Below, piece after piece: positions 10,328 to 58,941 of a stretch of 64,000 bases of DNA; within the stretch, counting starts at the first letter, position 1, and each line of letters opens with the position of its first letter. The position numbers and the translations under genes were made by a program. Source of the DNA: a virus; IMG/VR virus record IMGVR_UViG_3300002835_000088, positions 28,704 through 92,703 of that record; one strand, written 5' to 3'. The notes beneath the pieces are model-generated. The model had not been told where the DNA came from. It did not search any database and saw nothing but the letters and a program-made list of their open reading frames with translations.

Positions 10328-11404
10328 ATGAAAGTAGCTATATACACAATCGCATTAAATGAACGACAGTTTGTTGATAAATGGTATGAAGCTTCAAAAG
10401 AAGCTGATTACTTGTTAATAGCCGATACAGGCTCCACAGACGGCACCGTTGAGCGTGCAAAAGAGCTTGGAATTAATGTAGTCGATGTTCGAGTATCCCC
10501 TTGGCGTTTTGATGATGCTAGAAACGCAGCAATGGCAGCTTTACCAATCGATATTGATATGTGTATCTCCCTTGATATGGATGAAGTAATTACTCCTAAC
10601 TGGCGTCCATTGCTTGAAGCTGCATGGCAACGTGGAGTAACACGTCCTCGCTATAAGCATATTTGGTCTTGGAATGATGATGGGACTCCAGGTTTGGAGT
10701 TTAGCTATGACCACATTCATACTCGTAAAAATTATCGTTGGCGTCACCCAGTGCATGAGTGTTTATATGTATACGGACGCGAGGAAGTACAAGAGTGGAT
10801 TGAAGGTTTAGAGACTCACCACCACCCAGACCCAACAAAGTCGCGCTCTCAGTATCTACCGTTGTTAGCTCTTTCTGTTCAAGAAGATCCATATAACGAC
10901 CGCAATGCGTTCTACTATGGTCGAGAACTTTATTTTTATGGTCGCTACCAAGAAGCAGCAGTAGAGCTAAAGCGACATCTTGAACTCCCAACAGCTCGGT
11001 GGGCACCAGAGCGTGCTGCATCAATGCGCTTTATTGGTAAGAGTCTTCCTGCAGAAGCAGAGATTTGGTTTCGTAAAGCTATCGATCAAGCTCCAGGACG
11101 ACGTGAACCTTTTGTTGATTTAGCAGAGTTGTACTATCAACGTAAAGATTGGCAGAAGTGTTATGAAGCTGCTAAAGATGCTATTGCCATTGCTGAGAAA
11201 CCTTTAGAGTATTTGTGCGAAGCAAAAGCATGGGGAGCAGCCCCGCACGATTTTGCTGCAATTTCTGCTTACTATTTAGGTAAGTTTGAAGAAGCAGTGG
11301 AGCATGCAAAGAACGCTTTTAGCATCGAGCCAGATAATGAAAGACTTGCAGAAAATCTTAAATTTTGTCTTAGCGCTGTAAATCCAGAAGAAAAGAGTGT
11401 CTAG
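10328..11404 (+). CDS. Family 2 glycosyltransferase with C-terminal TPR-like repeats
   Basis: A 358-residue protein. The N-terminal half has GT2 (GT-A fold) features: YTIALNE at 6-12, ADTGSTDGT at 32-40, FDDARNAA at 61-68 and the metal-binding DMD at 83-85. This resembles SunS-like and other cytosolic GT2 enzymes. The C-terminal half (about 200-350) has helical TPR-like repeats (APGRREPFVDLAELYYQRKD, then a Tyr/Ala-rich repeat). It follows the methyltransferase by 9 bp and overlaps the halogenase gene by one base, so the three are probably co-translated. Likely role: adding a sugar to a virion protein or phage-altered glycan (inference). Confidence 0.85.
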   Translation: MKVAIYTIALNERQFVDKWYEASKEADYLLIADTGSTDGTVERAKELGINVVDVRVSPWRFDDARNAAMAALPIDIDMCISLDMDEVITPNWRPLLEAAWQRGVTRPRYKHIWSWNDDGTPGLEFSYDHIHTRKNYRWRHPVHECLYVYGREEVQEWIEGLETHHHPDPTKSRSQYLPLLALSVQEDPYNDRNAFYYGRELYFYGRYQEAAVELKRHLELPTARWAPERAASMRFIGKSLPAEAEIWFRKAIDQAPGRREPFVDLAELYYQRKDWQKCYEAAKDAIAIAEKPLEYLCEAKAWGAAPHDFAAISAYYLGKFEEAVEHAKNAFSIEPDNERLAENLKFCLSAVNPEEKSV

Positions 11405-40663: not shown

Positions 40664-40741
40664 TGTCCCTCCTTGGGCAGTTGTGTAGAACAAAACAATA
40701 GTTCTATCGCTGATTTAGTCGAGGCCGAGGGACTCCGAGAA

Positions 40742-41559: not shown

Positions 41560-44500
41560 TTAGTCCTTAATTTCACTATCAGAAGTTTGAAGTTTTGCTG
41601 CAGCAGATATAGCTCTTTCTCGGAAGCTATCTACATCAATAGAAGCAGCTGCCCACTTTTGTGGAATTAAAGTCTCTTTACCAAGAGCCTTTGCTCGCTT
41701 CATAATGTGCTTTTGAACAAGACCACGCTTTCCAGCCTTAGCACGTCCATAAGCTTGAATTGCATTACGAAGGTCGGTTACATTGCGGATTGGGAATGAA
41801 CCATCCTTAAGAGCCTTGCCCTCTTCAGCAAGTTTTTGACGCTCACGGCGAGTAACAACTGACATCTCTGCTTCAGGATTCTCATCGAACATTTGAAGCA
41901 TGTACTCTGAAACAGCCTCTGCTTCTGCTTTAGCACTGGCTACACGAGCTGAAAATTCAGCCATTTTTCCAGATAGAGCAGCAGCCTCTGCACTCTTGTG
42001 GATTGCTTCAAGGGCATCAATCTTTGAATTAATCTCAGCGATTGGGTCATGCTTAAGCTGAGCAAGTACATTTGCACCTGCAGCAACAAGAGCCATAACC
42101 TGACCTGATGCGACACGAGCACGTGCGATTGGGAATCCTGGAACGTTTACTTGGCAAACAGCAACCAACTCAAGGTGTCCCTTGATTGGTCGCCAGTCAC
42201 CTGATGGAGCTGATGCACGAGCGGCTCTAATTTGCTCGGGGGTTGTGCCAGGGCGTAGAGCACCTGAAACCCAAATTCCGTAAGCATCTTCACCTGCGTG
42301 CACGTCTGCGAATGCTGATGCAGTGTCATCGTAGTGACGAACTGCTTCTTCAGCAGAAGCTTCTAGACCAGCGTGACCGCCAGCCAAAGTTAGTTGACCA
42401 ACTGGCATATCCTTACCTTCAGCGGTACGAATTACACCAGTGTGGAAATATGAATACTTAGAACGGCTACGTGGAGGACGAGTTCCAAATGCCATTCCAA
42501 TGTGGTCTACATGCCAAGCAGCAATGTGACCGAATACGCGACCCTCATCTGTGATGGTAAGTGGGGTTGCCTTGTCAAGCTTTGGATTTCCAAACCATTC
42601 TGAAGGAGGCTCTACAGGGATAGCACCAGCTACCATGCCACAAGCAACAAGTGCTGACGCATCAAGCGGGCTCACCCCATCTACATAAATACCATCTGGA
42701 ACTGACATTTCTTCCTCCTCAACTTCGTTGCCATCATCAACGATTTGGATATAACACTCTTGGAATGCTGGTTTTGGCACAATGGTGACAGCCATAATTC
42801 GAGCATTCTTGATTACTATTCTACCTGCCTCTACTTTTCCTGAGTCCTCAGAAGCCTCTTCCTCATCAGCCTCAAACATATCCATGTCAGCAGATACTCC
42901 ACGGATAAACCCATTGCGAACAAGCCTTTCAGCTTCTTTTCCATATTCGCCTGTATCGAAAACGCCTACAGCATTTCCAATTCCACCATCGATGCGCTCC
43001 ATATGCGTGATTTGACCAACCACAACGGAACCATCGTGACCTTGACCTGTTTTAATCTGCCACAGTAGAGGCAGAGGTAGGTCTCGCATAACTATTACAC
43101 CTTTATCAAAGATGCGACCATCGCCAGATTCCTTGTCTTCAGGAATAACCAATGGGATAACAAATTTTGCTCCGTGTTCTACTGGTTTAGCACCTTCACG
43201 GCCCATGAATTGAGCCTTAGCTGCTTCAGCACGAGCAGATAGAGTAAATGAATCAATAATTTGTTCTTCAGAACGTAAGGCTTCAATGCTAGAAACCATA
43301 GACTTCTTTTTCATTCCTGGATTGCGCTTATCTCCAGGCCACATGCCAGTCATCTCTTTGTGACGAAGAGCGCAGTAACCTTTTGAGCGAGGTCCAAGAT
43401 ACTTTGAAAGATACTTGTGGCAACGAGTCCAGTCTCCTGGGCTGTTCCAACGAATCTTTAATCCACCCTTACCTACTGTCCAATAACGGCGAAGTTTCTC
43501 TGCGTTACCGCGGTTTTGGTCAAGTCCTCCAGCAGCTGTAATAGCGTTAAGAGTAAGAGCCATCGCAGGGTTGATTCGAATTGAAGCAACAATTCCACCA
43601 TCAATTTGAGAAACAACTTCAGCCAATTGTTCTGTGCTTAGAACAATAGTTGGTGGAGGTGTTGGGCTGTTTAGGTCAGCAAGAATTCTTTCATCGCGTA
43701 CCCACTTACGGTCACGGCGTTTGAAAGTAGAAGGTTGATTTGTATCGAAACCTGCTGGAACAACAGCAACTAACTCCATCACTGCTGCTGGGTCATCCTC
43801 AGCGACAATTGCAATGTACATAGGAGCCACATCTGTTTTTTCAGGTGTGATTTCATAGTTAGGTTTTTTAGCCTCGGCAGAAGAGGTAATTGACATCTCA
43901 AGGTCTGGATCAAACCTCTTCATGTAATCTTCTGCGCTAATTTTTCTTACATCTTTAGCAGATTTCTTTGGTTCTACCTTAGGTCCAAGTTTTCCGTAAG
44001 GATTTTCTTTATACCAACCATCTCGGTGATAAGCATTTTCTGGAGATGCGTTCTTGTTGTACTTTTTATCCAACCAATCACGTAGTAGTGGGTTGTTGTA
44101 AACATTTTCTGTTGTAGCAGGATTCCAACCTGGCTTTGGTGTGCCATCTGGATTAAATGAACCTGTGTAGTACTGACCAAGAACAGTATTTGGGTCAAGA
44201 CGTGTATCTACAGCAGGTGAAGTTCCAGCAACTGGTGCTGGAGCATTTACTGGCTGTCCTGTGTATTCAGGAGTAACTCTTTGGTCTGACATCCAACTAG
44301 ACCAGTCAGTAAGCATTGTTTGAAGACTGTCTACTGTAAGTGGTGGTAGACGTCCTGGAAGTTTTGCTGTTGGCTCATCAATTGGAACTCGTGGTTCTCC
44401 AAGAATGCCAGAAGTGTCTAGTTCAAAACTTGGAAAGCCTTGTACAGGAAGAGGTTGATAATCTTCTGCCAACTGAGTTTGGTTTGCTGGAACTGCTACG

Positions 44501-45747
44501 ACATTTCCATTAGGAAACTCAACGTTTGCTTCTTGAGTTTGTGAGTTGATAGAAAGAATTTTTCCTGTGTACTTAGGGTCGTTTCCAACAATCACAGTGC
44601 TTCCAGCTTTAGCAAATTTACCTAGCTGGTCACGAACTTGCTGAGAAGCCTTCTCTGAACGTTCTTCAGGTGTGTAGTTTCCATCTTGGTTTGTTGGAGC
44701 TTGTGTTGTAGGAGCACCTACAGCAAGAAGGCCGTCATCCCACTCATCTACTTCAAATACTTCATCTTCAGAAAGCTGGTCAAGGAACTTCCAGTCAATT
44801 TCTGGAATTGCTTTTTCAATCAAATCTGATTCATTGAAATCAATCATTTGAATAGAAATTGAATCAAATGGGTTGTTATCCAGCATCGCTGAAATCTTTA
44901 CTGCAGATTCACGGTCTACAGGAGTGTGAATTTTTTGCACTTGGTCATAAGGATCGTCAAGTGACTTGTCATATGTAATAAAGTCATGGTCAATGTGACC
45001 AAGGTCTTCCCAGCAGCCGTCATCCCAAACGGTGCAGTAACCTTCCATATCTACTTTGTATAGACGGTCAATACCTGAGCCATCTAAACGAATTCGAATA
45101 TAAAAATCTGGCTCGTACTCTGATGGATTAAATGACTTGTAATCAATACGCTCTATCGGCATAAACTCATCGATAGATGCAACTACAGAATTGTTTGCAC
45201 GCTTTTTATTGTCGCGCTCAACAATTGCTGACGCCCAACGCTTTGCAGCATCTCCACCCCAAAGAGCCCATGCAATGCGACCATTACTTGGGTAGTTTTG
45301 TTGGCCCGGTTTGTAGCCTTTGCCCTTCTTGTCCACTTCGTGACGTGGGAAGTATTTCGCGATGTGACGAATCTTTTGGATACCAATCTGCCCACCCTGC
45401 GCCAGAGTGCGTGCAGTATTCAGGCCAACAGGTGTGCCACCTCGTTTTTCTTCTTTTCTCCAAGCGAGTCCTCTTTTTGCTTCTGAAACAACAGCATCAG
45501 GAATGGTGTACATATTGCTGCTATCACCATTGCTAAGAACTTTAATATCTAGGTCAGTAACGGCAGCGTTTGCTAACTCAACAGAAGAAGCTTCTGGTCT
45601 TTCACCATAAGTACTCCATTCTGCAGAAGCTAGTAGAACAGCACTGCTATCAACCCGAACAACTGTATTAGTAGACTCGTCAATAACTGTTGCCAAGTCG
45701 TCGTTCGAGAAGAGAACGTAATTATCGTTTCTACCTAGAAATTCCAT
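41560..45747 (-). CDS. Capsid maturation protease polyprotein
   Basis: A 1395-residue multi-domain protein. Residues ~80-175 form a small domain (YTIPDAVVSEAKRGLAWRKE...GLNTARTLAQGG...RIAWALWGGDAAKRWASAI) known in large actinophage head proteins. RDQLGKFA starts at 372. A Cys/Trp-rich segment (TRCHKYLSKYLGPRSKGYCALRHKEMTGMWPGD) lies near 795-835. The HK97-type prohead protease follows, with His904 (GHDGS) and Ser952 (RGVSADMD), spaced 48 as in that family. The third acidic residue is not evident. After it, residues ~1040-1230 (LTITDEGRVFGHIAAW...GEDAYGIWVSGALRP...VNVPGFP) are a domain often joined to actinophage capsid proteases. It probably cleaves the capsid N-terminus and itself. Confidence 0.85.
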   Translation of the reverse strand: MEFLGRNDNYVLFSNDDLATVIDESTNTVVRVDSSAVLLASAEWSTYGERPEASSVELANAAVTDLDIKVLSNGDSSNMYTIPDAVVSEAKRGLAWRKEEKRGGTPVGLNTARTLAQGGQIGIQKIRHIAKYFPRHEVDKKGKGYKPGQQNYPSNGRIAWALWGGDAAKRWASAIVERDNKKRANNSVVASIDEFMPIERIDYKSFNPSEYEPDFYIRIRLDGSGIDRLYKVDMEGYCTVWDDGCWEDLGHIDHDFITYDKSLDDPYDQVQKIHTPVDRESAVKISAMLDNNPFDSISIQMIDFNESDLIEKAIPEIDWKFLDQLSEDEVFEVDEWDDGLLAVGAPTTQAPTNQDGNYTPEERSEKASQQVRDQLGKFAKAGSTVIVGNDPKYTGKILSINSQTQEANVEFPNGNVVAVPANQTQLAEDYQPLPVQGFPSFELDTSGILGEPRVPIDEPTAKLPGRLPPLTVDSLQTMLTDWSSWMSDQRVTPEYTGQPVNAPAPVAGTSPAVDTRLDPNTVLGQYYTGSFNPDGTPKPGWNPATTENVYNNPLLRDWLDKKYNKNASPENAYHRDGWYKENPYGKLGPKVEPKKSAKDVRKISAEDYMKRFDPDLEMSITSSAEAKKPNYEITPEKTDVAPMYIAIVAEDDPAAVMELVAVVPAGFDTNQPSTFKRRDRKWVRDERILADLNSPTPPPTIVLSTEQLAEVVSQIDGGIVASIRINPAMALTLNAITAAGGLDQNRGNAEKLRRYWTVGKGGLKIRWNSPGDWTRCHKYLSKYLGPRSKGYCALRHKEMTGMWPGDKRNPGMKKKSMVSSIEALRSEEQIIDSFTLSARAEAAKAQFMGREGAKPVEHGAKFVIPLVIPEDKESGDGRIFDKGVIVMRDLPLPLLWQIKTGQGHDGSVVVGQITHMERIDGGIGNAVGVFDTGEYGKEAERLVRNGFIRGVSADMDMFEADEEEASEDSGKVEAGRIVIKNARIMAVTIVPKPAFQECYIQIVDDGNEVEEEEMSVPDGIYVDGVSPLDASALVACGMVAGAIPVEPPSEWFGNPKLDKATPLTITDEGRVFGHIAAWHVDHIGMAFGTRPPRSRSKYSYFHTGVIRTAEGKDMPVGQLTLAGGHAGLEASAEEAVRHYDDTASAFADVHAGEDAYGIWVSGALRPGTTPEQIRAARASAPSGDWRPIKGHLELVAVCQVNVPGFPIARARVASGQVMALVAAGANVLAQLKHDPIAEINSKIDALEAIHKSAEAAALSGKMAEFSARVASAKAEAEAVSEYMLQMFDENPEAEMSVVTRRERQKLAEEGKALKDGSFPIRNVTDLRNAIQAYGRAKAGKRGLVQKHIMKRAKALGKETLIPQKWAAASIDVDSFRERAISAAAKLQTSDSEIKD

Positions 45748-45749
45748 GA

Positions 45750-46355
45750 TTATTCCTCTACCGCGTACTCTGCTAAATTATCTTTAGTAATTTTTTCACC
45801 AGCGTCCCAGCGGGCTACGAGGTCTTTTCCTTTTTCAACATCAATGTCTGTGATTTCTGAGCCGTCATACTCTTCTGACATCTCAGGAGTGGCAGGAACC
45901 CACTTACCCTCGTTGCGGAAGAAAGTACCAAGCCCAGCAACCGTGAAGACAACAGCTGTGACGTCACCAGCATCGTTAGACAAAGCCTCTACGGCTTGTT
46001 CTAAACCGACTTGCTCGTCGATTACCATCATTTCCTCCATCATTTGCGGGGTTAGAGTCAGTCCATAACCAGTTAGAAGCGCAGAGTCATCCTCTGTGAA
46101 CTTTCTGATTCGATAGGTACCGTCGAACGCAGCAAACTCAATTGTACCCTCGGTTTTCTTAACTAACTCTGGATCAACTGGGTAAAACATGCCGCGTCCT
46201 CCACGAACGAGGATGCCGCTATCGGCTTCATCGTCGTCTCCCTCATATACAAACTGAACTACATCGAATAGAGGGAATTTGCTTTGGTTTTCTCCAGATA
46301 GTTTTTCAATAACACCTGGAGTCCCAAAAATTACTTCTTCAGAGATAAGAGCCAT
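45750..46355 (-). CDS. Hypothetical acidic head-locus protein
   Basis: A 201-residue strongly acidic protein. Its first half has strands around PLFDVVQFVYEGDDDEADSGILVRGGRGMFYPV; the second is helical. No family was recognised. It sits between the 3114-residue protein (TAATG overlap, with the ribosome binding site inside the upstream Lys-rich tail) and the protease polyprotein, so it is probably co-translated and packaged with the head. Confidence 0.6.
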   Translation of the reverse strand: MALISEEVIFGTPGVIEKLSGENQSKFPLFDVVQFVYEGDDDEADSGILVRGGRGMFYPVDPELVKKTEGTIEFAAFDGTYRIRKFTEDDSALLTGYGLTLTPQMMEEMMVIDEQVGLEQAVEALSNDAGDVTAVVFTVAGLGTFFRNEGKWVPATPEMSEEYDGSEITDIDVEKGKDLVARWDAGEKITKDNLAEYAVEE

Positions 46356-49300
46356 TATTTCTTAGCCCCTTTCTTTTTCTTTTTGCCAGAAACCATGTCT
46401 GCCAAATCAGTAAGACCTTCAGTCATAAGACGCTCGATGAGCTTCTCTCGGATAGCTGCTGGCATTGACATGGATGAAATGTCTGCCCATGAAAGGTTCT
46501 TCTTAAACATCAACTCTCCGTAGTTGTTGCTTAGAGACTGAACGATATCCTCTGAGTCAGATTGAAGCTGACCATACTTATCGGAGTTGTTCTTGTAGTA
46601 ATCCAAACGACGAAGAACTTTTCGTGAATCGAAGTACAAAGCAAAGCTTGTAGAAGTGCTTGAACCTTTAGATGATGGAGAGGCAAAAACATAGTTTCCG
46701 CCGTTAGCATCAATATCTGCAGATGAAGACATTCCGCTCTTGTTAATTCCGTTCATCCAACGAGTAGCAGTTGCGTAGACGCCTCCTGATGTAACAACGT
46801 TGTAAAACCAGTCAACAGTGTTGGTCTGGTCTCCACCCTTCCAATTGTGAACAATGTATGGAGAGAATCCAGTTTTTTCCATCAACTTTTCTACAGCGGA
46901 CTCTGGCATGTAATAGTTAACTCGACCACGAGCAAGTGGGTCTACGACAACTTCAACATCAGCTGCTGTGAATCCATATTCATCCTTAATGTACTCAAGG
47001 GTCTTCTCACGGAGTTCACCTGCGTAGTTCTTCTTTCCATCGGTAGAAGAGCCAAGCAACCAAATCATTTTGTTTTCAATAACACCTTGAACATCAGATT
47101 CAAGTGCTGGACGAACTTGAGAGATTCCACCCAAAGAGTTAAGGGCCTCAGCTACATCCTCAGAAGTTGCATCTGCTGGAAGATAGATTTCTGCTTTGTT
47201 GTGGAAGGAAACAGCGTATGGACTACTACTGTGGTACTTAAAGAAGTCCACTTCAGTATCATCAATAGACTTACTTGCTCTGTGAAGAAGGAAAGTTCCC
47301 TTTCCAGCAGGTCCTTCAAAAGTTACACCGTTTTTATTTGAGTCAACTGTGCTTGTATCCCAAGTGTCTTTCCAAACGAGAGAACCATCTGCCTTCTTCT
47401 CCCACTTATCCAAACGCAATGCTTTTGTTTTAGTTACATTCGGGTCAGAATCTGCTTTAGCAACTATTTGCTTTCCAGCCCAGTTAGTTAAAGTGAACTG
47501 AAGACGAATCTTCTTTTCGCCATTCTTGTCTGTAACCATTCCAACGTGGACTTCTAGGTCCTCGATTGAATCTGAGTCAAGAAGAGTAGTTGAACCATTT
47601 GCAGCTTCTCCAGCATTGTCATTCTTTGCCATCTTCAACGAGTCTTCTAGTGAAGGCACATCTGGATGTGGAGATTGCGAATAGTCAGGTGCGGCATCTA
47701 GTGTTTGAACAGCAAAACCTGGACCGTTGACAGAGAACTTATCCTTTAGAGCTTTAGCTTCTGCTTCCAATTGAGCTTTCTTCAAAGCATCTGCTTGCTT
47801 CTTTGCATAAGCCTCGCCTTTAGCCTTTGCTGCAGCCTTAGACTTGTCAAAAAGTGTTGGGTCAAGAGTAATGTCTAGTTCTTTTGCTTGCTCAGGAGTA
47901 ATAAACTTCTCACGGGACCACAACTTGTCAGACTTTGTGCTCTTAGTCTGTCCTGCAAGAGGTCCATCAAAGTATGAAACAAAAATTTCACCACTTTTTG
48001 CATCTTGTTTTGAAATTACACCGTAGCTAGTCAAGTCTTGGTCAGAATCGTTTGGGCTTACGTTTTGAACCAAAATTCCTGGAACCATGTTCTTAGAGTT
48101 TGGGTCTTTAATAAACTCGCCACTTAAAAAACTCTTGTAATCGCTGTAATCATTTGCTCCATAAGCAGCTAAGTGACCAACAGAGTTTTTTTCTACTGCT
48201 TTAGATTCAACATCTTTGATTGCAGTAGCACCAGCAAGGTCAGTACCTTCAAAAGTTGGAAGTTCAACTGCAGGTTCTGGATTGTTTACAGGTGCAGGAC
48301 TTGTTGGCTCTTTAGGAGTTGTTGGTGTTCCACCACTTCCACCAGTTGGGCCATCATCTTCTGGCTTGTCAGGCTTTACACCTGAAGTGTCCTGAATATC
48401 TAGATAGGTTGAAACCTTCCAGTTCTTCTTGCCATCATCCCATTGAACCTTGGCAACGTCTGTGTAGGTGTAACCCTGTGGATTTGATTTGCTCTTAGAT
48501 GTAACAAGCTCATCCTTAAGTGAAACAACCTTTCCAGTCTTACCAGTCTTAGTATCTTTGACAATCATTCCAACCTTAATTGGAGTCTTGCCATCAGCAG
48601 ATACATAAGCACCCTTCTTTGTTGGAATTGCAGAAGGAGCGATAGTTCCTGGAGTTTCTGGCTTAGATTTTGAGATAACCTTGCTTGGAGTTACCTTTGC
48701 TTTCCACTTCTCGTTCTCAATACGGCTAGAAAGAGCTGTGTATGAGTGCCAACGTCCTGCAAGAGTTTTAACTCTTGTAGTTCCATCAGAACCCTTAATT
48801 CTGTGATAGACACTAAAGGTGTTGTCAGAGTTGCGCTTCACCATTGTATAAATAGTTGAGCCAGCAGGTGTTACATTCTCAGCAACAACAATGTCACCGT
48901 TTTCGATGACAGAGATTCCCTTCTCATCTTTAACCTTTGCCCAAATCAAATCTGGGTCTAAAGGCTTCTTTAACTCTTCAGCAAGTGCATCAGCATCGAT
49001 TGGCTCCACTTCATCTTCTGGAGCAGCATCTTCATCTGGTGTCAGTGCTTGAGCAAGGTCAGACTGAATCTTTTCTTCAGGAGTTGCATCTGCAGGAGCA
49101 GATACAGTGTTGATGTCCTCAAGAATTGAATCGATAAGCTCATCGTTAGAGCCTTCCTGCCCCTTGAGAGACTCAAGTAGGTCCTTTGTCTTGCCCTTGC
49201 TACCAAAAAGCTTTTCTGCAAGAGCTGAAACTTCGTCAAGAACCTTTTGTTTCTCAACTGGATCAATCTGAGCAGCTTCTGGTGCCTGTGGAAGTTCCTT

Positions 49301-52300
49301 CTCAGGTGTTGGAGCAGCCTCTGGTGCTTCTGTAGCAGAAGAATCACTTTGCTCAAACTTAGAGAGGGTGTAGTTCTTCTTCACACCATCTTCACCGATT
49401 GCTGAAAGATTAATGTTGCCGTTCTGTGGGTTCTTCCACACTCCCTTTGGAGTTACAACTCTCTCTTTTCCGTTGTACTTGAACGCAATCTTCTTTCCAG
49501 CATCTTGTGCAGCAGTAATTTGTGCTTCAATGTCACCTGCAGCATCAATAACAACTGTATTGGTATCAACAACTGGCTTCTTTGGCTCTTCGGCAGGTGT
49601 TTCTTCTGCTTGTCCGCCCAAGAAACGGTCGATTAGATATTGACGACGTGCCTTAAGAGTTTCTTTAACTGACTCAGCAGTGTCTGGGTCAGAGAAGGCA
49701 GCATCTACAAGCTCATCAATCTTTTCTGGAGTTATTGCTTGTACCTTTTTAACAGACTCAGCGATTTCTTCATCGCTCATATCTCCAAAGATGTCTGCAG
49801 CCTGTGCGTTCTGCTTTGCATCACGCATCGAGTCAACTTGTGTTGCTTCAGGACCAAACTCCTTGTCAGTTCCACCCTGTGCACGGAATAGTAGAGAACC
49901 ACCAGCATCAATACGAGCGATGTTTCCATCCTTGTCAACAAGCATGTTGTCATACTCAAGGCCAACTACATCGTAGTTACCAAGCCATGCGTCAACTGCG
50001 AAGTCAGCCTGAGCCTTCTTCTTTAAATCTGCATTGTTCTTGTCAGATGCAAGAGTATTTCCATCTAAAACTGGAGAAACAAGAACAGTGTTTCCACTCT
50101 TGTCTACACCCTTGTATGCACGACCAAACTTAACGCCAGCCTCTTCATAAAGAGCACCGCCTAAGATTTCATTCTCTGCATGCTTGTCAGACTTTGGCTT
50201 CTTAACGTAATACTGATTTCCAGTGTCTGGGTCTACATAGAAAGCACCTTGATTGGAGCCAGCTTGTCCTGCAACCTTCTTCCACTTAGAAGTATCAAAT
50301 ACTGAAGTTACATCTTCAGGAGAAACTTCTTCTGCTGGAATTGGCTTGTCAGTCTTTGCATCCTCATCTTCAAGGTTGCTAACAATGTTTGGGAAAGAGT
50401 CTGCGAAGTCTGGATGCAACATTCCTGCATCAGACATCTTGTTGATTTGGTCTCCAGTAAACCAACCAGTTGCTGTGTTCTCGCCATCCTTGCTAGATAG
50501 GTCGTTGAACTGGTCTGGTCCTACTTCGAAGACAGAAGTTTCGTACGCCCATTCAGCGCCAACTTTGTTTGTGTCGACGTAGATTGGTTCGAAGGCAGAG
50601 ATATCTCCACCAACTTCTTCCATAAACTCTTCTTTTGCTGTGGCGTTAGGTGCCTTAGCAATTGTTTGGTCTTTGTGAGCTCCACCTGGAATGCCCCACT
50701 TGCCTCCACCTTGTGAAAGGCTAGATGAACGCTTTGCTAGGAAGTACTCGTACTCTCCATCTGCGTTCTTACGACGAAGCAATGCACCACCAGCACCGTA
50801 CTTACCCCAGAAGCGCTTACCATCTGTTGTAAAGAAATAACCTTCTCCAGTTTCTTGATTGCTTCCACCACCAAGAGGTGCAAAGAATGGAAGCTTTGGA
50901 GGAGTCAAACTTCCGTTGCGAAGTGCTTGAACATCTGCAGCAGAAATGTTTTCTGCGTAGAAGACACCATCAGTACCTTCTGCAATGTTGTAGTCAGCCC
51001 ACTTACCAGCGTTTGCTTCCTTCTCAGGAGCATCATCAATTTCAAGTTGTGGTTGTTCTAATTCTGGTTCTGGTTCTGGAACAGCATCTGGCTCGCTGTT
51101 GCGACGCCATACTTCGTAAGCTTGGTACTTAACCCAAGCAGATTCGTATTCTTTTCCAGTTGCAAGAAGTCTGCGCTTAACTAGTACACGCTTGTCATCT
51201 CCATCGATAGGAGTGATAGAGATGATTTCGTGGAATCCATCATGCTTAGCCTTGATGAAGTCACCTGGTTGCCACTCTTCAACAGCGATTGAACCAACAT
51301 TTGTTGTGTTCTCTGGGTCTGATACCCAGTTGTTAGAAATGTTTCCACCAAGAACTGATTCGATTTCGAAGTCTCCGTCGCCAACTTCTGTTGCCTTTGG
51401 AGTAGTTGCAGGGGAAAGCTCGTCTGATGTTGGCTTGTCCTTTGGAAGAGCCTTTGCAAGTACCTCTGGGTCTTCTGGAATCTCTTTTCCAGCCATACCA
51501 TCTGCAAAAGTCTTTGCCATAACAAGTTCTGAATCAGCCTTAGCCTTTGGATTCTTGTAAGCGTCGTACTCTGCCTTAGCCTTGTCGTAATCTGCTTGGC
51601 TCTTGTCAATGTCAAGAACATCAATGCCAGACTTTGTGACAGCCATTTCATCAAGAAGGTTGTCAAGAATTCCAGGCAATACAGCAACGTCAACAGAAGC
51701 ATCGTGCCAATCTGTATTTGGCTCTGCTAGTCCGTAACGGTTTGCTACAGCCTCAAGTTTGTGGTCGCCAGCGCTTCCATTAATTACCTTCCGAGCAAGC
51801 GAGAGTGTGTCAATCTCACCTGATGGCTTGTAATCAAGTCCATACTCAGCCATCTTGCGTCGAAGGATTTCACCATCAAAAGGCATGTTGTGTGCAGAAA
51901 CGATTGGGTTTGCACCAAGGAAGTCAGCAATCTCGTTAAATGCATCTTGCTGAGACATCTGCTTTGAAAGGAACTCATCGGAAATTGGATTTCCATCTGC
52001 ATCCTTAAGAATGTCCTTTGGATCTTTATCTGTGTAGAAGGAATCCAATGGTTGCTCTGGATTCATGAAAAGCGTCTTCTGCTCGACGATTTCACCGTTC
52101 TTCATCTTGGTCATCGAAACTTGAATTGGACTTGGAGCTGTAAAGCCTCCAGTTGATTCGAAGTCAAGGTGAACTACTTCTTCATTTGCAAGAAGTTCTT
52201 TAAACTTAACTGGGTCGCCATTTGCCTCTGCAGCAATTGCCTTGAGCTTATCTCCCATGAATGCAGGAGGAGTTGGGCGAGAAACCTTCTTTGGTGCAGC

Positions 52301-55300
52301 TGGTAATGCATCTACATCAATTGGAGGAGTAAATGTTGCAGCAGATTCCTTCTTTGCTGCATTAAAGTCTGCATACTTTTGCTTGTAATCAGCGTCGTCC
52401 TTCTTTGGACGCTCAAGTGCTGGCTTCTTTCCTGGCTCTGGAAGAGAGGAAGCTCCACGGATTACCTTGATAGGAGTTGTACCCTTCCAGCTCTTTGATT
52501 GAGACTGGTGGTCTGGATAGTAACCAGTGATTACAGCATTACCGTTTTCATCAGTTGTAACGTCTTGAACAATGAAGTATTCGTAGAAGTCATTCTTTCC
52601 TTCTTTCTTGAAGGCAATGTCTCCTGGCTTTACTTCAGTAGCAGCAACATCAACTACACCAACAGTGTTCTTAGTTGGGTCGTAAACAGGTGCTTCAGAT
52701 TCTGTGTTCCATTCTTCAACATTCTCAGGTGCAGACCACATTTCCTTAGCAGCGGCAAGGTCTTTGTTGTACTGGTCAACAGCATCTAGATACTTGCTAC
52801 GAGCCTCTGCATCTTTTGGAACCCAAAGGTCAAGGTTCTTATCTTTGTAAACCTTACCTTCAGGGTCATACTCTTTTGCCTTTGGCTTTGAAAGAACTGG
52901 AAGGTCACCCTTTGTAGGACCATCAACATTTCTAAATACAGAAATATCAGTGTCGTTGTTCCACAACTTTGTCTTTTGAGAAACGTGACCTGGGTAGTAA
53001 CCAGTGACCCAAGATTTTCCTGGAATTTCAGAAGGTTCAACAGACTCAATTGTAAAGAAGTCGTTAGTTGTAACGTCTCCTGCTTTAAGTTCAGAAGTCT
53101 TAGCTTTTAGCTTTGCTGGTCCTGTTGGTTCTCCGACGTTAACGTTGGTAACGGTTTGGGGTCCCGCTTCATTCGTCGTAGCTTGTTCCGTGCTTTCGGC
53201 AGGGACTTCTTCTTGAGGTGTTGGGGTTCCTTCTGGTGTTTCAGTATCTTCTCCTTCTAGAGCGTCACTGATTTCTGTTGGAGTAATTTCAGAATCTTCT
53301 TGACCTGAAATGCCTTCTTTGTAGATACCATCAATCAAGCTGTCGGTATCTTCACCTTGCAATTGCAGAGCATCACGGATTGCTTCTACAGGAACGTAGC
53401 CCTTGTAGTCTTCACCTGTCTCTGTTTCTTGGGAAAGAATTCCATAACCATCTCCACCTGGCTCAATGCCACGGCGTAGTTCATTCTTCAAATCTTCTGT
53501 GTCGTAGTTATTTGCAATGTCTAGAGGGTCAAAAGTAAATCCTTCTGGAGCATCCTCTGGAAGTGGGTAAAGGTCCTTGTTAAATGGATTTGTATCTAGG
53601 ATGCTATAACCATCTGGCACTTCAAACTCGGTGTTCTGTGGAAGATGCTTTGCGTAATCACCAGTCTTGGCGTACTCGTCCTTCTCATCGTCTGACAAAC
53701 CATCAAGCAGTGCAGGAAGTTTTGCTGGGTCTGCTTCTGCAGAAGGCATAGGAGCTTCTGGAATCTCTTTTCCAAGCTCGTCTTTTACATCTTGTGGAAC
53801 TTCAGGAGTTTGTTCTCCCTTATCTCCAGCAAGCTTTGCCTTAATCTTTGAGTATGCCTTCTTTACAGCGGCACCAATATCTTTTCCAAGTTCACCAAGA
53901 GTGTCACGAAGTGATTCAGCAGGAACAGACTCGTCACCATTCTCAAATGGAAGTTGAGCAGTTCCGTCACCTTCAAGAGACTCTTCTAGTGCAGAGGTAA
54001 TTTCTTCCTCGTCAAACTTTTGAGCAAGTTCTGCAGGGTCATCTGTGTAGTCTTTAGATTCAACATCAGGACCTGCACCCTGTGGGACATAAGGTTCTGG
54101 GTCCATCTTGTATGCACCTTCAGGTACGTCAAACTCTTCAGGCTTTTCACTAGCAGGAGCAGCAGGTGCTGCTGGCTTCTTTGCAGAGTTTCCAGATGCA
54201 TCTCTTTCGAGTTCACCAGTCTCAGCGTCTACGACAGAACCATCAGGAAGAACGATGTGATCTTTACTTGGGTCAAGTGGGAAGAGTCCACCGTTTTCTT
54301 CGTAATCCTTTAAATCTTTTTTGTACTGCTTCATCTCTTTCTTAAGAGCTGATTTTCCAACCTTAGGAATGAGTTGGCCTTCAAGACCTTCTGCAGGAGT
54401 TGCCTCTGGAGTTTCGGCTTCTTCTGTATCTTCAGCCATCTTTGTTGGGTCTGGGAGGTCACCCTTCTCAAACTTTGGCTCATCTTGTGAGATGTAATCT
54501 TGAACATCAGACCAACGCTGTGCAACAGCAAAAGGCTTGTTGTCATCTTCTCCACGGCGAGATACAAAGTAAACAGGAAGATTAGGGTCTAGAGAGCCAT
54601 TCTTTCCTGCACCCTCTGTAACAACATTCTGTCCTTCGTTTTCTCTTTGCTGAGCAGCTTCAAACTTATCTTTTGCTGCAGCATTAGGAGTTGAAATCTT
54701 AATGACATCGTAAGCATCATCTGTGTACTTAGTTCCAAGGTCAATCTTGGTTCCATAAAACTCTACGTCGTTATCGTTAGGTGACCAGCTTTCATCTTTG
54801 CTAAATCCTGCAGGAGCATCAATCTTTACAAGATCTGCTTCTTCGATAACAGGGTCGCCTGTTTTAACCTTTGCATTTGTCTTGCTGTATCCATCTGGAC
54901 CTTGAGCAGACTTAAGAATCGCCTTTACACCTTCAGCAGACTTTGCTGGAACACGAACCAAATCACCATTTGGCAATTCCATATCAAAGGTGTCACTGTT
55001 TTCATCAGTTGCAACGCTACGACCAGTTAAAGACTGAATAGCACCATTTACACGACGAACAAATGCACGAAGTCCTCCGCCCATGTAAGCAAAGCGACCC
55101 TTACGGTCACGGCGCTGACGCATTGCACGAGCACGACGAGCAGCAGATGAGTTTCCATCACCCAAGGCTGCTAGAAGTGCATACTGAGGGATTGAACCTT
55201 GAGGCATTGATTGCAAACGAGCAATTGAGTATTCGTACTCAGGAGATGCTGGGTGAGCAGTTAATGCAGAAGCAAGAACTGTTCTAACAGTGTCATCTTG

Positions 55301-55699
55301 AATGTGAGGGTCATCGCAAATCCACCGAGCGCGGAAACGCATCAACTCAGCGGTGCTTAGTTCATGCTTACGAGTAGAGCGTGGGTGTGAAACTGGAAGT
55401 AGGTCTGTATTTTCTACAGTAGTTGAAAAAACCTTGTTGTATTGAGCAAGTTTGATGTAGTTGTTTAGCTCTTTGATTGAACGAATACGGCGAAGAGAGT
55501 AAGACTCACCTTCATACTTGCTAAGTGAGCGGTTAAGAACAGCAAGAGCAGCACGACGTGTGATGATTCGAGAGCCAGAGAACTTAGAGTTAGATTCTTT
55601 TACTAGCTCAAGGCCAGCATCAATAATTCTCTTGTTTTGCTCTTCGTAAGAAAGAACGGGTACCTGTACTTTGCTCTTGGCAGATTCGTTTTTAGCCAT
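46355..55699 (-). CDS. Giant 3114-residue head-locus protein: exonuclease, Nudix-like and kinase-like domains
   Basis: Domain order: N-terminal helical region (1-260) with DLLPVSHPRSTRK at 99-111 and RDRKGRFA at 197-204. A long acidic Pro/Glu-rich region (~400-860) follows. Two repeats (~885-1090) share GYYPGHVSQ/GYYPDHQSQ. A DEDDh exonuclease has Asp1179, Glu1181 (LDFEST), AHNMPFD and His1332-x4-Asp1337. A Nudix-like domain has WGIPGGAHKD then KEEFMEEVGG (1689-1698), keeping Glu1691, Glu1694 and Glu1695 but with Glu for the usual Arg. A HipA/PI3K-like kinase region has YYVKKPKSDKHAENEI, GNYD (Asn1908), YDNML (Asn1918) and RIDAGG (Asp1931). Further beta modules lead to a C-terminal globular domain (~2800-3090, GGVYATATRW). 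It follows the portal block, where MuF-type proteins normally lie. Packaging and injection are inference. Confidence 0.8.
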   Translation of the reverse strand: MAKNESAKSKVQVPVLSYEEQNKRIIDAGLELVKESNSKFSGSRIITRRAALAVLNRSLSKYEGESYSLRRIRSIKELNNYIKLAQYNKVFSTTVENTDLLPVSHPRSTRKHELSTAELMRFRARWICDDPHIQDDTVRTVLASALTAHPASPEYEYSIARLQSMPQGSIPQYALLAALGDGNSSAARRARAMRQRRDRKGRFAYMGGGLRAFVRRVNGAIQSLTGRSVATDENSDTFDMELPNGDLVRVPAKSAEGVKAILKSAQGPDGYSKTNAKVKTGDPVIEEADLVKIDAPAGFSKDESWSPNDNDVEFYGTKIDLGTKYTDDAYDVIKISTPNAAAKDKFEAAQQRENEGQNVVTEGAGKNGSLDPNLPVYFVSRRGEDDNKPFAVAQRWSDVQDYISQDEPKFEKGDLPDPTKMAEDTEEAETPEATPAEGLEGQLIPKVGKSALKKEMKQYKKDLKDYEENGGLFPLDPSKDHIVLPDGSVVDAETGELERDASGNSAKKPAAPAAPASEKPEEFDVPEGAYKMDPEPYVPQGAGPDVESKDYTDDPAELAQKFDEEEITSALEESLEGDGTAQLPFENGDESVPAESLRDTLGELGKDIGAAVKKAYSKIKAKLAGDKGEQTPEVPQDVKDELGKEIPEAPMPSAEADPAKLPALLDGLSDDEKDEYAKTGDYAKHLPQNTEFEVPDGYSILDTNPFNKDLYPLPEDAPEGFTFDPLDIANNYDTEDLKNELRRGIEPGGDGYGILSQETETGEDYKGYVPVEAIRDALQLQGEDTDSLIDGIYKEGISGQEDSEITPTEISDALEGEDTETPEGTPTPQEEVPAESTEQATTNEAGPQTVTNVNVGEPTGPAKLKAKTSELKAGDVTTNDFFTIESVEPSEIPGKSWVTGYYPGHVSQKTKLWNNDTDISVFRNVDGPTKGDLPVLSKPKAKEYDPEGKVYKDKNLDLWVPKDAEARSKYLDAVDQYNKDLAAAKEMWSAPENVEEWNTESEAPVYDPTKNTVGVVDVAATEVKPGDIAFKKEGKNDFYEYFIVQDVTTDENGNAVITGYYPDHQSQSKSWKGTTPIKVIRGASSLPEPGKKPALERPKKDDADYKQKYADFNAAKKESAATFTPPIDVDALPAAPKKVSRPTPPAFMGDKLKAIAAEANGDPVKFKELLANEEVVHLDFESTGGFTAPSPIQVSMTKMKNGEIVEQKTLFMNPEQPLDSFYTDKDPKDILKDADGNPISDEFLSKQMSQQDAFNEIADFLGANPIVSAHNMPFDGEILRRKMAEYGLDYKPSGEIDTLSLARKVINGSAGDHKLEAVANRYGLAEPNTDWHDASVDVAVLPGILDNLLDEMAVTKSGIDVLDIDKSQADYDKAKAEYDAYKNPKAKADSELVMAKTFADGMAGKEIPEDPEVLAKALPKDKPTSDELSPATTPKATEVGDGDFEIESVLGGNISNNWVSDPENTTNVGSIAVEEWQPGDFIKAKHDGFHEIISITPIDGDDKRVLVKRRLLATGKEYESAWVKYQAYEVWRRNSEPDAVPEPEPELEQPQLEIDDAPEKEANAGKWADYNIAEGTDGVFYAENISAADVQALRNGSLTPPKLPFFAPLGGGSNQETGEGYFFTTDGKRFWGKYGAGGALLRRKNADGEYEYFLAKRSSSLSQGGGKWGIPGGAHKDQTIAKAPNATAKEEFMEEVGGDISAFEPIYVDTNKVGAEWAYETSVFEVGPDQFNDLSSKDGENTATGWFTGDQINKMSDAGMLHPDFADSFPNIVSNLEDEDAKTDKPIPAEEVSPEDVTSVFDTSKWKKVAGQAGSNQGAFYVDPDTGNQYYVKKPKSDKHAENEILGGALYEEAGVKFGRAYKGVDKSGNTVLVSPVLDGNTLASDKNNADLKKKAQADFAVDAWLGNYDVVGLEYDNMLVDKDGNIARIDAGGSLLFRAQGGTDKEFGPEATQVDSMRDAKQNAQAADIFGDMSDEEIAESVKKVQAITPEKIDELVDAAFSDPDTAESVKETLKARRQYLIDRFLGGQAEETPAEEPKKPVVDTNTVVIDAAGDIEAQITAAQDAGKKIAFKYNGKERVVTPKGVWKNPQNGNINLSAIGEDGVKKNYTLSKFEQSDSSATEAPEAAPTPEKELPQAPEAAQIDPVEKQKVLDEVSALAEKLFGSKGKTKDLLESLKGQEGSNDELIDSILEDINTVSAPADATPEEKIQSDLAQALTPDEDAAPEDEVEPIDADALAEELKKPLDPDLIWAKVKDEKGISVIENGDIVVAENVTPAGSTIYTMVKRNSDNTFSVYHRIKGSDGTTRVKTLAGRWHSYTALSSRIENEKWKAKVTPSKVISKSKPETPGTIAPSAIPTKKGAYVSADGKTPIKVGMIVKDTKTGKTGKVVSLKDELVTSKSKSNPQGYTYTDVAKVQWDDGKKNWKVSTYLDIQDTSGVKPDKPEDDGPTGGSGGTPTTPKEPTSPAPVNNPEPAVELPTFEGTDLAGATAIKDVESKAVEKNSVGHLAAYGANDYSDYKSFLSGEFIKDPNSKNMVPGILVQNVSPNDSDQDLTSYGVISKQDAKSGEIFVSYFDGPLAGQTKSTKSDKLWSREKFITPEQAKELDITLDPTLFDKSKAAAKAKGEAYAKKQADALKKAQLEAEAKALKDKFSVNGPGFAVQTLDAAPDYSQSPHPDVPSLEDSLKMAKNDNAGEAANGSTTLLDSDSIEDLEVHVGMVTDKNGEKKIRLQFTLTNWAGKQIVAKADSDPNVTKTKALRLDKWEKKADGSLVWKDTWDTSTVDSNKNGVTFEGPAGKGTFLLHRASKSIDDTEVDFFKYHSSSPYAVSFHNKAEIYLPADATSEDVAEALNSLGGISQVRPALESDVQGVIENKMIWLLGSSTDGKKNYAGELREKTLEYIKDEYGFTAADVEVVVDPLARGRVNYYMPESAVEKLMEKTGFSPYIVHNWKGGDQTNTVDWFYNVVTSGGVYATATRWMNGINKSGMSSSADIDANGGNYVFASPSSKGSSTSTSFALYFDSRKVLRRLDYYKNNSDKYGQLQSDSEDIVQSLSNNYGELMFKKNLSWADISSMSMPAAIREKLIERLMTEGLTDLADMVSGKKKKKGAKK

Positions 55700-55701
55700 C
55701 G

Positions 55702-57183
55702 CTAGTTCTTCCTTTTCGGCAGAAGGTCTGAGTCCATGCTGTCGTATGTCATTACTGCAAGAACAGATGCTCGCTTGAATGGGTTCTCATTGTTGCGAAC
55801 TGCACGAAGCCAAGCAGCACGGAAAGCAGGTTCGGTTTCGTAACCTAGACCTGCAAATTCTGTCATAGCAAAGATTGCTTGTTCTGGAGTTTCGTACTCT
55901 TCTTCAGACTTTAATTCAACATTAAGTTCTGCTTCTGCAACTGCAGATGCAAGAAGTAGGTCTAAATCTTCTTTGTCACGAACTGGAACGTCGTAACCAG
56001 AAACTGCACCTTCTGGAAGAACAGCAAAACGGCACTTACCATCTGCTTCAACTTCAAGAGAAATAATTTGGCATTTGTTTGGTCCTTGGAAGAATACGCA
56101 GTTTGCACACTTGACTCCAATGTCTTTGACATCGTTTTCATAAGCAGGTGTGTAGCCAGCCCAAACACCATCACCATCTTGGTCAAATGGACCATGCTTC
56201 TGAGTAATAGCAATGAGTGCTTCTGCTAGGTCTCGCTCTTCTGGAATCAAACCAGATGCAGTAATTGTGGAAGAACTCTTCTTTGTAGATTTTGGATGCG
56301 CTGCTGGTAGCAAATCATTATCTGCCTTGTATGCAGAATTTGCTGGCTTACCAGACTTAAGCAAACGAAGGAATGCGTTAACACGACCCATCGCCCACTG
56401 ATTGCGTGTCATCCCAGGTCGATGAGATACGGAATAGGCTCCTGCACCCCTACGGTAGACCGCCTTGAGTGTGGCAACAGTTGTCTTGCGACCCTTTGGT
56501 GCCTTCTCGTTGTGCTCTGCGACTTTCTTTTGAAGAGAAGACTCAATCGCAGGAGTAAAAGTGATTTTCTTACCGCCTGAAGCTGAGCCCTTTGAATTTT
56601 TATCAGAACCTTTGATACGGTCTTTTTTAGGAGCAGGAGTTTGAGAGATAGTGCGCTTTGCAAATTCACTCGCATCTGAAGAATCTTTTGGTACACAGTT
56701 TGGAACCATCTTTCCGTCTTTGCCTTTTTTCATTCCTACTTGGACGTAACCGTCCCAGCAAGGACCTTGTGCAGCGGTGATTGGTTCCACTTCGTCAATA
56801 ATGTCAACTGCAGCAACTACTGGACCGCCAGCAACCCAAGCACGGCATGTGCGTGCTGATGCACACTTAAAATCAAATGCTTCGCAGTAACCAAGTTCGC
56901 CAGCTTCGTTGATTGAATCAAACTCATCTGCGTTATCTGTCAAACCGCTTTCAATGCAAGAGAGCATCTCTGGAGTTTGAATAAAGACAGCACAGTTGCC
57001 ACAACGTTGTTTCTTTGCAGTTTCTACATCAACGCCCCACTCAGCGCCTAGTGCAGTCCAATACTCTTCGTTTGGTTCTGCAGGGTTAAGTGGTCCATAC
57101 ATTGCACTATCAATTGCCTTCTTGCGGTTGTCAAGATTAAGTGCAATATCCTGTGTTGCTGGAGGGCAAGTCTCTTCAGCCAT
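55702..57183 (-). CDS. Cys-rich head-locus protein with DUF5872-like segment
   Basis: A 493-residue protein. Residues 61-113 hold six cysteines (CGNC at 61-64, then Cys76, Cys100, Cys107, Cys113) followed by RAWVAGG. A second set (KCANCVFF...CQI...GKCRF) lies near 360-390. Both look like small Fe-S (HiPIP-like) or zinc sites. Residues ~215-295 (TLKAVYRRGAGAYSVSHRPGMTRNQWAMGRVNAFL) resemble DUF5872-type phage/virus segments and end in DLLPAAHPKSTKK from residue 290, a linker also found at the start of the giant protein downstream. Its place is between portal and giant protein; the function is unknown. Confidence 0.65.
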   Translation of the reverse strand: MAEETCPPATQDIALNLDNRKKAIDSAMYGPLNPAEPNEEYWTALGAEWGVDVETAKKQRCGNCAVFIQTPEMLSCIESGLTDNADEFDSINEAGELGYCEAFDFKCASARTCRAWVAGGPVVAAVDIIDEVEPITAAQGPCWDGYVQVGMKKGKDGKMVPNCVPKDSSDASEFAKRTISQTPAPKKDRIKGSDKNSKGSASGGKKITFTPAIESSLQKKVAEHNEKAPKGRKTTVATLKAVYRRGAGAYSVSHRPGMTRNQWAMGRVNAFLRLLKSGKPANSAYKADNDLLPAAHPKSTKKSSSTITASGLIPEERDLAEALIAITQKHGPFDQDGDGVWAGYTPAYENDVKDIGVKCANCVFFQGPNKCQIISLEVEADGKCRFAVLPEGAVSGYDVPVRDKEDLDLLLASAVAEAELNVELKSEEEYETPEQAIFAMTEFAGLGYETEPAFRAAWLRAVRNNENPFKRASVLAVMTYDSMDSDLLPKRKN

Positions 57184-58941
57184 TTACTGCTGAACCTCCT
57201 CGGTTGCAGGTGCTGGTTCTTCGGTAGGTGTTGCTGCTGGAGCTTCTCCAATTGCACCATCAAGAAGGTTTTGTAGTTCTGGAGACATTGGAGCAACAGA
57301 AGACTCTTGGCTTACTGCTTGAACTGCTTCCATAACTTCAGGAGCTACTGCCTTAAGCATTGCTTCTGTGAGTTCTGGAGTAATTGCTCCACGCTCTTGT
57401 AGAAGTCGAAGTGCAACTTCTGTTGGAGTTGGTGCATCTTGGTCAGAGAATCCATGTGCACGACGCCATGTATCGCCAGAGATTGCCATGCGGTCAAAGC
57501 CAGCATCTGCATCTGCAGCACGGTCGTTTCGAGTTGAAACCGCTGATGGGTCATACCAAACAGTAAGACGGTTTACTTCAGACTCTGTGAATCCATTTGC
57601 AAGAAGATATGGACGAAGGTAAACAACAGTCAAAGAGTCACAAATCAAAAGCATCAATGGCTCGATGTGTGCTTTGTAAAGTGCTTCGTCAATTTGCAAT
57701 GCGTTTGAGTACTTAACATTTGCAAGACCTGTTACAACATCCTTTGGAACATCTAGTCCCTGAAGGATGCGCTCTAGTACACGGTCTGAACGCTCAGCAA
57801 GTGCTGGGTCGAATGAACGCTCAAACTTGAACTGCTTAATCTTGTCGCCAAGTTCTGCAGGTCCACGAATGATGAGAGGAACAACGGCGCTCGCAGATTC
57901 TTCATCGCGAATCGGAGTTGTCATCGCATCGATAAGTTGCTCTTCAAATTCATCTTCTGCTTCTTCAGCAGTGAAACCTGAACCAAGACCGTCTTCTGAA
58001 TCGTATGGATAGTCTGGGTCACCTTGTGCTGCAACAGAAAGTCCATCTGGAAGATAAAGTGCTCCTGCATTGAGACGAGAGCGTGCAGTTGCACGGAATG
58101 TTCTGTTGAGGAGAAGAAGTTCTGCGCAAAGATCTAGTAGACCGCGAAGTGATGAATCTGCTTCATCAGAAAAGCGTGGGTGTGAACGCCAAATGCGTCC
58201 TACGAATGCATTCTTTTGAAGTCTACTTACTCCAAATGATGCACCGCCACCTTGTCCTGCACCTTGTTCACGACGACCAATAACATTGAAACCACCACGT
58301 GCATCTGTAACAACTTCATCTACAGAGCGAACATCCCAAGACTCTGGTGTTCCAGTTCCTGGACGTGCTGGCATTTGTACTAAATAGCATTCACCAGCAA
58401 CAGAAAGATTTAGTGCTGCATCCTTAAGAAGACCTGCTTGTCCTCCATATGCAGAGTTAAGGCGTTCTAGTGCACGCTCTGCGGCAGATGCAAGACGCTC
58501 TTCAATAACTCGAGATTCGTTTACTGAAACTGGAGCTTGCGAAGCATCATCAATTGCTGCTGCGTAAATGCGAATGCGTGAGACAACAGATGCAACAAGA
58601 TTAAATGCGTATTTAATTTCACCAATTGCGTCGTAGTATTCCCAAGCTTCTGCTTGCCATGCGCTAGAAGATGCACTTCTGCGATTTTTAAATTGTTCAA
58701 ACTCGCCTTTGTCATTTACTTTAACTTGAACTGCTGCTGCAGTAAGAGAACGAGGAACGTTGTATGCAGCAGATGAGGCAGGAGTGTTAGTTGTAAAAAC
58801 TGAAAGAATGCCTGATGGTGTTGGTGTTGGCGCTACAACCTGACGGGAGCGATTAGTCCGAGGACGACGAGTAGAATTAGACTTTGCCTTAGGTGCAGCC
58901 TTTACTGGCTCCTGTGGTTCATCTTTCTTGAATACAGCCAC
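57184..58941 (-). CDS. Portal protein
   Basis: A 585-residue protein with a GTG start at 58941. The pattern fits actinophage portals: WQAEAWEYYDAIGEIKYAFNLVASVVSRIRIYAA near the N-terminus, GECYLVQMP, an arginine- and Trp-rich wing, then GLDVPKDVVTGLANVKYSNALQIDEALYKAHIEPLMLLICDSL, the conserved stem/crown region. Low-complexity Ala/Pro/Thr tails lie at both ends. It forms the dodecameric DNA gate of the capsid. It is followed directly by the Cys-rich protein gene. Confidence 0.9.
   Translation of the reverse strand: MAVFKKDEPQEPVKAAPKAKSNSTRRPRTNRSRQVVAPTPTPSGILSVFTTNTPASSAAYNVPRSLTAAAVQVKVNDKGEFEQFKNRRSASSSAWQAEAWEYYDAIGEIKYAFNLVASVVSRIRIYAAAIDDASQAPVSVNESRVIEERLASAAERALERLNSAYGGQAGLLKDAALNLSVAGECYLVQMPARPGTGTPESWDVRSVDEVVTDARGGFNVIGRREQGAGQGGGASFGVSRLQKNAFVGRIWRSHPRFSDEADSSLRGLLDLCAELLLLNRTFRATARSRLNAGALYLPDGLSVAAQGDPDYPYDSEDGLGSGFTAEEAEDEFEEQLIDAMTTPIRDEESASAVVPLIIRGPAELGDKIKQFKFERSFDPALAERSDRVLERILQGLDVPKDVVTGLANVKYSNALQIDEALYKAHIEPLMLLICDSLTVVYLRPYLLANGFTESEVNRLTVWYDPSAVSTRNDRAADADAGFDRMAISGDTWRRAHGFSDQDAPTPTEVALRLLQERGAITPELTEAMLKAVAPEVMEAVQAVSQESSVAPMSPELQNLLDGAIGEAPAATPTEEPAPATEEVQQ

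Follow-up and report, generated by a model that had tools for sequence, protein, structure and literature searches.

A giant head-locus gene of a probable freshwater actinophage encodes a predicted multi-enzyme protein of the polyvalent type

The window analyzed here is a 64,000-nucleotide stretch of the IMG/VR virus record IMGVR_UViG_3300002835_000088 (positions 28,704 to 92,703 of its 92,703 bases). At 46355..55699 on its minus strand lies one uninterrupted ATG-to-stop open reading frame (ORF) of 3,114 codons, situated in the head locus of a tailed phage. We propose, with a probability of roughly 0.75, that its product, hereafter the giant, is a polyvalent-type effector in which several enzymes are bundled for delivery with the DNA of a phage whose host is probably a freshwater actinobacterium. 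Many IMG/VR contigs encode homologues of 2,286–6,094 residues, and Actinomycetia phage DSL-LC01 has one in the corresponding position; on account of this conservation the ORF is not a chance one. The original prediction, made from the letters of the window, had described a single uninterrupted gene, as confirmed here, without stating its strand; the DarT-like C-terminal fold, the constant ends, and the cassette behavior described below were absent from it.

Predicted enzyme domains

An AlphaFold2 model of residues 1160–2040 was searched against the PDB with Foldseek. The mean predicted local distance difference test score (pLDDT) of this model is 69.8 because of the linkers, and the domain cores mostly score 80–95. 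Folding left out four exonuclease fragments that were misplaced on the kinase in the 54-row alignment, as well as some other rows, and it left out the GenBank phage rows L001–L004 and the plant-associated Pseudomonas rows L083, L084, L092, and L102. The active-site counts given below include near-identical contigs and do not represent independent events.

Residues 1168–1376 (51572..52198; like all domains and head genes located below, on the minus strand) are predicted to adopt the RNase H-like fold of a DEDDh 3'-5' exonuclease with a D-E-D-H-D catalytic set. This assignment is supported by sequence (Pfam RNase_T, 8.4e-12, residues 1176–1340; phrog_192, 1.2e-22; NCBIfam PolC, 4.8e-22) and by structure (DinG, 8.5e-8; PolC exonuclease 2p1j, 9.8e-7; DnaQ 8h18, template modeling (TM) score of 0.79), and D1179, E1181, D1275, H1332, and D1337 are kept in 31–32 of 32 relatives. 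The original prediction had named the fold and four of these residues correctly, leaving the third aspartate, D1275, unlisted, and the matches of the model to DinG, PolC, and DnaQ-type exonucleases bear out the structure that it implied.

The model likewise places a Nudix fold resembling RenU at residues 1600–1775 (50375..50902), as had been suggested from the sequence; RenU (6uuf) is matched both by phmmer (2.3e-9, residues 1617–1770) and by Foldseek (4.8e-9, TM score of 0.73). The canonical box GX5EX7REUXEEXGU is not matched: the glutamates of its REUXEE portion, E1691, E1694, and E1695, are invariant (29 of 29 sequences), the spacing and the first glutamate differ, and the canonical arginine is a glutamate, E1690, in 20 of 29 sequences, so that the arginine-to-glutamate replacement already recognized in the window is a conserved change.

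Residues 1800–2040 (49580..50302) are predicted to form a HipA/CtkA-like kinase fold, equipped with an N-lobe lysine (K1833), a helix glutamate (E1844), a catalytic aspartate (D1910), and a metal-binding asparagine and aspartate (N1918 and D1931), all of which are kept in 138–142 of 142 sequences. Sequence comparison with the PDB yields weak matches alone (LepB, 0.19; CtkA, 0.08), and the assignment was settled by structure (CtkA 3akk, 2.1e-7; best TM score of 0.55, to 3akl). Pfam makes no call on the kinase of the window protein as a single sequence. Among 74 kinase homologues there are matches below the cut-off to HipA_C (20 of 74) and HipA_2 (16 of 74) and none above it, the best values being 0.0007 (L077) and, for HipA_2, 0.002. 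The structural match to CtkA and the near-invariant catalytic set nevertheless uphold the HipA-like kinase region of the original prediction. The fold and catalytic residues resemble those of CtkA/HipA-like kinases; in contrast to these, the kinase of the giant has no full-score Pfam match and sits in a phage head-locus protein and in MuF proteins. This kinase is widespread, with matches in at least 591 viral stretches in IMG/VR, and it also occurs in kinase-ADP-ribosyltransferase (ART) proteins of Pseudomonas and Enterobacter phages. A search of the literature for a CtkA/HipA-type phage kinase found none.

The fourth predicted enzyme lies at the C-terminus, where residues 2650–3114 (46358..47752) form a constant domain found at 37 viral loci and modeled by AlphaFold2 with a pLDDT of 84.5 and a predicted TM score of 0.88. 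Profile comparison of this domain with the PDB and Pfam gives no match, and it was read from its structure instead. The top three PDB matches of the model are all DarT (7omv, 6.1e-3, probability 0.99; 7omx, 1.8e-2; 7omw, 3.7e-2), and the DarT of Mycobacterium tuberculosis (7yk3, E value of 0.52) ranks fifth. The DarT-like part, approximately residues 2935–3090 (46430..46897), contains H2951, R2980, and E3062, conserved in 56, 57, and 54 of 57 sequences, respectively. We therefore regard this domain, on the strength of the model, as probably a DarT-like ADP-ribosyltransferase with the fold of the DNA ADP-ribosyltransferases. The modeled fold resembles that of the DarT of DarTG systems and carries a conserved H...R...E set; unlike that toxin, the domain is embedded in a phage giant, its fold score is weak, and no DarG macrodomain antitoxin was identified among the adjacent head genes scanned with Pfam.

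A constant core and variable cargo

Profiles were built from each part of the giant and mapped across the loci. Relatives that have both ends always retain the order N-terminal domain, kinase, C-terminal domain. The short type (L037–L040; 2,286–2,492 residues) has neither the exonuclease nor the Nudix domain. Proteins of the window type (~3,100–3,200 residues) add a duplicated segment, two small repeated domains, the exonuclease, a small domain, and the Nudix domain, and carry several small domains downstream of the kinase. In the giant, the small repeated domain occupies approximately residues 870–945 (52865..53092) and, as an internal repeat of that copy, 1027–1104 (52388..52621); one profile matches both copies and also precedes the exonuclease in other architectures. 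The long type (L017, L041, L047, L050, and L054) consists of the kinase, a small domain, the exonuclease, a UvrD helicase, and Nudix domains. Its largest member, the 6,094-codon ORF L017:6539-24820 (6,094 residues), includes the kinase, the exonuclease, the UvrD helicase (Pfam, 9e-11), two Nudix domains, and at least one ART; ARTs of the ADPrib_exo_Tox family are found in L017 and L053. Some viral proteins have the kinase without the constant ends.

Because the kinase and the C-terminal domain are kept while the exonuclease and Nudix domains are absent from the short type, the profiles identify the former two as the predicted core of the family and the exonuclease, Nudix domain, UvrD helicase, and further ARTs as its cargo. 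The constant retention of the kinase and ART leads us to propose that the core function lies in modifying the host, and that the exonuclease and Nudix domain are swappable tools for counter-defense or DNA handling. One could instead view the giant chiefly as a starter of replication or repair, its exonuclease, joined in relatives by the UvrD helicase, serving the repair, recombination, or end protection of phage DNA. The closest matches of the exonuclease, PolC, DnaQ, and DinG, are in keeping with such a service, as is the succession of exonuclease and UvrD helicase in the long architectures; however, what the two-ended relatives keep is the kinase and the DarT-like ART, not the exonuclease, and we consider this explanation unlikely, albeit the strongest of the alternatives.

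The cargo itself appears to move. The Nudix domains of L017 and L014 are 81% identical, whereas their N-terminal domains, exonucleases, kinases, and C-terminal domains are 34%, 27%, 39%, and 29% identical, respectively; between L017 and L041, which share an architecture, the N-terminal domains are 50%, the kinases 49%, and the Nudix domains 45% identical. Given this incongruence of identities across domains, the sequences are best explained by transfer of a Nudix cassette between two architectures.

The head locus and the case for packaging

The minus-strand gene order around the giant is portal protein (57184..58941; phrog_776, 2.9e-108), a 493-residue protein with DUF5824 (55702..57183; Pfam, 8.3e-9), the giant, a 201-residue protein (45750..46355), a head maturation protease, a 240-residue protein, and the major capsid protein (MCP; 38573..40693; phrog_777, 9.1e-89). 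The start of the 201-residue gene, which has homologues in the same place, overlaps the stop of the giant by one base. The protease, encoded two genes downstream of the giant (41560..45747), is Peptidase_S78-like and fused to other domains (phrog_859, 1.5e-89; phrog_18402, 3.7e-58; weak Peptidase_S78). Relatives maintain the order portal, 493-residue protein, giant, protease, MCP; the position or presence of the 493- and 201-residue genes differs between their loci. The MCP has 706 residues and an acidic, Ala/Glu-rich N-terminal region of ~300 residues that is perhaps a fused scaffold.

The first 300 residues of the giant (54800..55699) form a constant domain common to those same-locus relatives whose sequence includes the N-terminus. 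Within it, residues 181–256 share homology with residues 355–425 of the head protease (7e-7); this region comprises an RRDRKGRFA motif (residues 196–204; 55088..55114) and a small beta-rich segment that closes with PNGDLVRVPA. Residues 33–111 are homologous to the upstream 493-residue protein (6e-5). The motif core, Q-R-R-D-R-x-G-[RK]-F-A, is invariant in the alignment of relatives, and the motif recurs as RDQLGKFA in the head protease and as RDAGGKF in the 240-residue head protein. We infer that this region is a candidate element for capsid targeting or docking.

Three lines of evidence support packaging of the giant: its fixed place between portal and protease, the N-terminal module that it has in common with the head protease, and the fusion of the same kinase elsewhere to MuF or minor-capsid domains and ARTs. 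Such fusions are MuF-kinase-ART proteins of Contendobacter and Thioalkalivibrio (L058 and L081, prophage-type), a Phage_min_cap2-kinase-ART protein of Acrocarpospora (L070), and a MuF-kinase-C-terminal-domain protein of Methyloversatilis (L075). The same observations bear on the possibility that the giant is made late and acts unpackaged in the infected cell, in host shut-off, lysis timing, or superinfection exclusion, its locus reflecting late transcription only. The kinase genes of Enterobacter and Pseudomonas phages are not visibly beside head genes in the annotated stretch, as this possibility would allow, but the invariant place of the giant between portal and protease, the homology of its N-terminus with the head protease, and the prophage proteins in which the kinase is joined to MuF or to minor capsid protein 2 make it rather improbable, somewhat more so than a role in DNA service. 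A mainly structural giant, serving as a scaffold or core protein within the head or at the portal, its enzyme folds turned into non-catalytic binding modules, would suit the great length, the constant terminal domains, the repeated small domains, and the replaced Nudix arginine, but it is very unlikely in view of the near-invariant active-site residues in four different folds, the catalytic glutamates retained by the exchanged Nudix cassette, and the same-locus relatives that lack exonuclease and Nudix domain, these two being hence dispensable for assembly.

Our preferred reading, a packaged effector of the polyvalent type, leads to the following model. A single late polypeptide, encoded in the head locus, would be carried into the prohead by the N-terminal module common to it and the head protease, which might cut the Pro/Ala/Glu-rich linkers; the giant or its pieces would then be ejected along with the DNA. 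Once inside the cell, the kinase may phosphorylate host proteins in the manner of HipA, the C-terminal ART may ADP-ribosylate DNA or protein, the Nudix domain may hydrolyze a nucleoside-diphosphate compound, and the exonuclease may trim DNA or RNA ends or degrade short signal oligonucleotides, the net outcome being early takeover, counter-defense, or both. The original prediction had proposed hydrolysis of nucleotide signals and phosphorylation of host factors; as substrate claims, these are guesses.

Several points weigh against the reading that we prefer. We infer packaging and host entry from the three lines of evidence given above; of the packaged, injected multi-enzyme effector originally predicted, the enzyme folds stand and the delivery is an argument from context. 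The Nudix activity may be altered, since the canonical arginine is replaced, and the DarT match is moderate (E value of 6e-3; TM score of 0.41–0.44 on the target). Pfam detects neither a zincin-type peptidase nor a Phage_Mu_F (PF04233) or Phage_min_cap2 domain in the giant; the MuF-type label once attached to it was wrong, and for want of this domain we reject the giant as a MuF effector.

A more specific proposal, to which we give even odds, is that the giant is a virion-delivered chassis with a capsid-docking N-terminal end, a DarT-like C-terminal end, and a constant HipA-like kinase, in which actinophages swap cassettes inside one gene. If this is true, freshwater actinophages possess a platform for delivering proteins in which the cargo evolves through cassette swaps and a HipA-type kinase is the core anti-host enzyme. 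A protein with exchangeable cassettes would also be a source for mining anti-host and counter-defense enzymes.

Comparison with known systems

The best-known examples of enzymes injected by phages come from T4-like and N4-like phages. Through the family of the giant, which centers on a widespread HipA/CtkA-like kinase, the idea would come to include probable freshwater actinophages. Polyvalent proteins are multi-enzyme phage polypeptides encoded in portal or terminase context and proposed to be co-injected with DNA (Iyer et al. 2017, J Bacteriol, PMC5512222), injection being a prediction in that paper too. The giant resembles them in its great size, in uniting several disparate predicted activities in one polypeptide (exonuclease, Nudix, HipA-like kinase, and DarT-like ART), in its phage locus beside portal-terminase-type genes (between portal and protease/MCP), in modular rearrangement, its relatives varying in domain order and content, and in the classes of enzyme involved, namely ARTs, a kinase, and nucleic-acid enzymes. 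The kinase differs, however: that of polyvalent proteins is a truncated form of the Ser/Thr/Tyr-kinase superfamily found mostly in elements of Verrucomicrobia-Chlamydia and Bacteroidetes (PMC5512222), whereas that of the giant is HipA/CtkA-like. The giant also differs in its exonuclease and DarT-like end; the main text of PMC5512222 leaves DEDD unmentioned and names Nudix once, in another context. In addition, polyvalent proteins commonly, though not universally, have a processing zincin-like metallopeptidase, which Pfam does not find in the giant. The giant thus agrees with the polyvalent protein concept, in which it makes up a new family whose kinase is of another type.

MuF-type effectors and MuF polymorphic toxins are head-associated carriers of toxin domains, and the kinase and C-terminal domain of the giant are MuF-fused in prophages; unlike these effectors, the giant has its own N-terminal domain in place of MuF. 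Fusions of head proteins with Nudix domains and with ARTs have already been described in a survey of NAD-ADPr systems (PMC9503650), in support of the general idea. Our literature search for ejected proteins with Nudix or ART domains found none.

Relatives, host, and other genes of the window

The closest annotated relative of the phage is DSL-LC01, from Dishui Lake (PMC10611076). Its protein WJZ48510 (3,289 residues, annotated as hypothetical) has the same post-portal locus and the same N-terminal, kinase, and C-terminal domains as the giant; unlike the giant, it is without the exonuclease and Nudix cassettes. This relationship and a WhiB gene in the window suggest that the host is probably a freshwater actinobacterium. 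The portal gene of Gordonia phage Forza is directly followed by gp78, a kinase gene (734 residues, annotated as hypothetical) whose product starts with a GADGRF..KGG segment, and an annotated ART, gp80, is encoded two genes beyond it (L004:11671-17203 for gp78 and gp80); Forza is cultured, which makes packaging directly testable.

Four further relatives deserve comment. An Actinocatenispora comari contig (L063:3-12212) encodes a protein, at least 4,070 residues long, in which the kinase comes immediately after the Nudix domain, an arrangement also seen in the window. Two ORFs together make up the giant at L009:9884-19290, where the break falls before the C-terminal domain, and at L052:1708-10405, where it falls before the Nudix domain and the ORFs overlap by 140 bases; both breaks lie exactly at domain borders and are either sequencing errors or real gene fissions. 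IMGVR_UViG_3300047564_003843 (160,704 bp) contains two complete giant loci (L116 and L119) ~136 kb apart; either its assembly is concatenated or chimeric, or the phage has a second head locus.

Elsewhere in the window, a subtilisin-family protease (5368-6960; Peptidase_S8, 2.7e-30) is flanked by two collagen-like GPTGPTG proteins in the presumed tail-fiber region. A tryptophan halogenase (11404-12912; Pfam, 2.6e-83) adjoins a glycosyltransferase-like gene and collagen-like proteins, and a tryptophan halogenase is also present in DSL-LC01.

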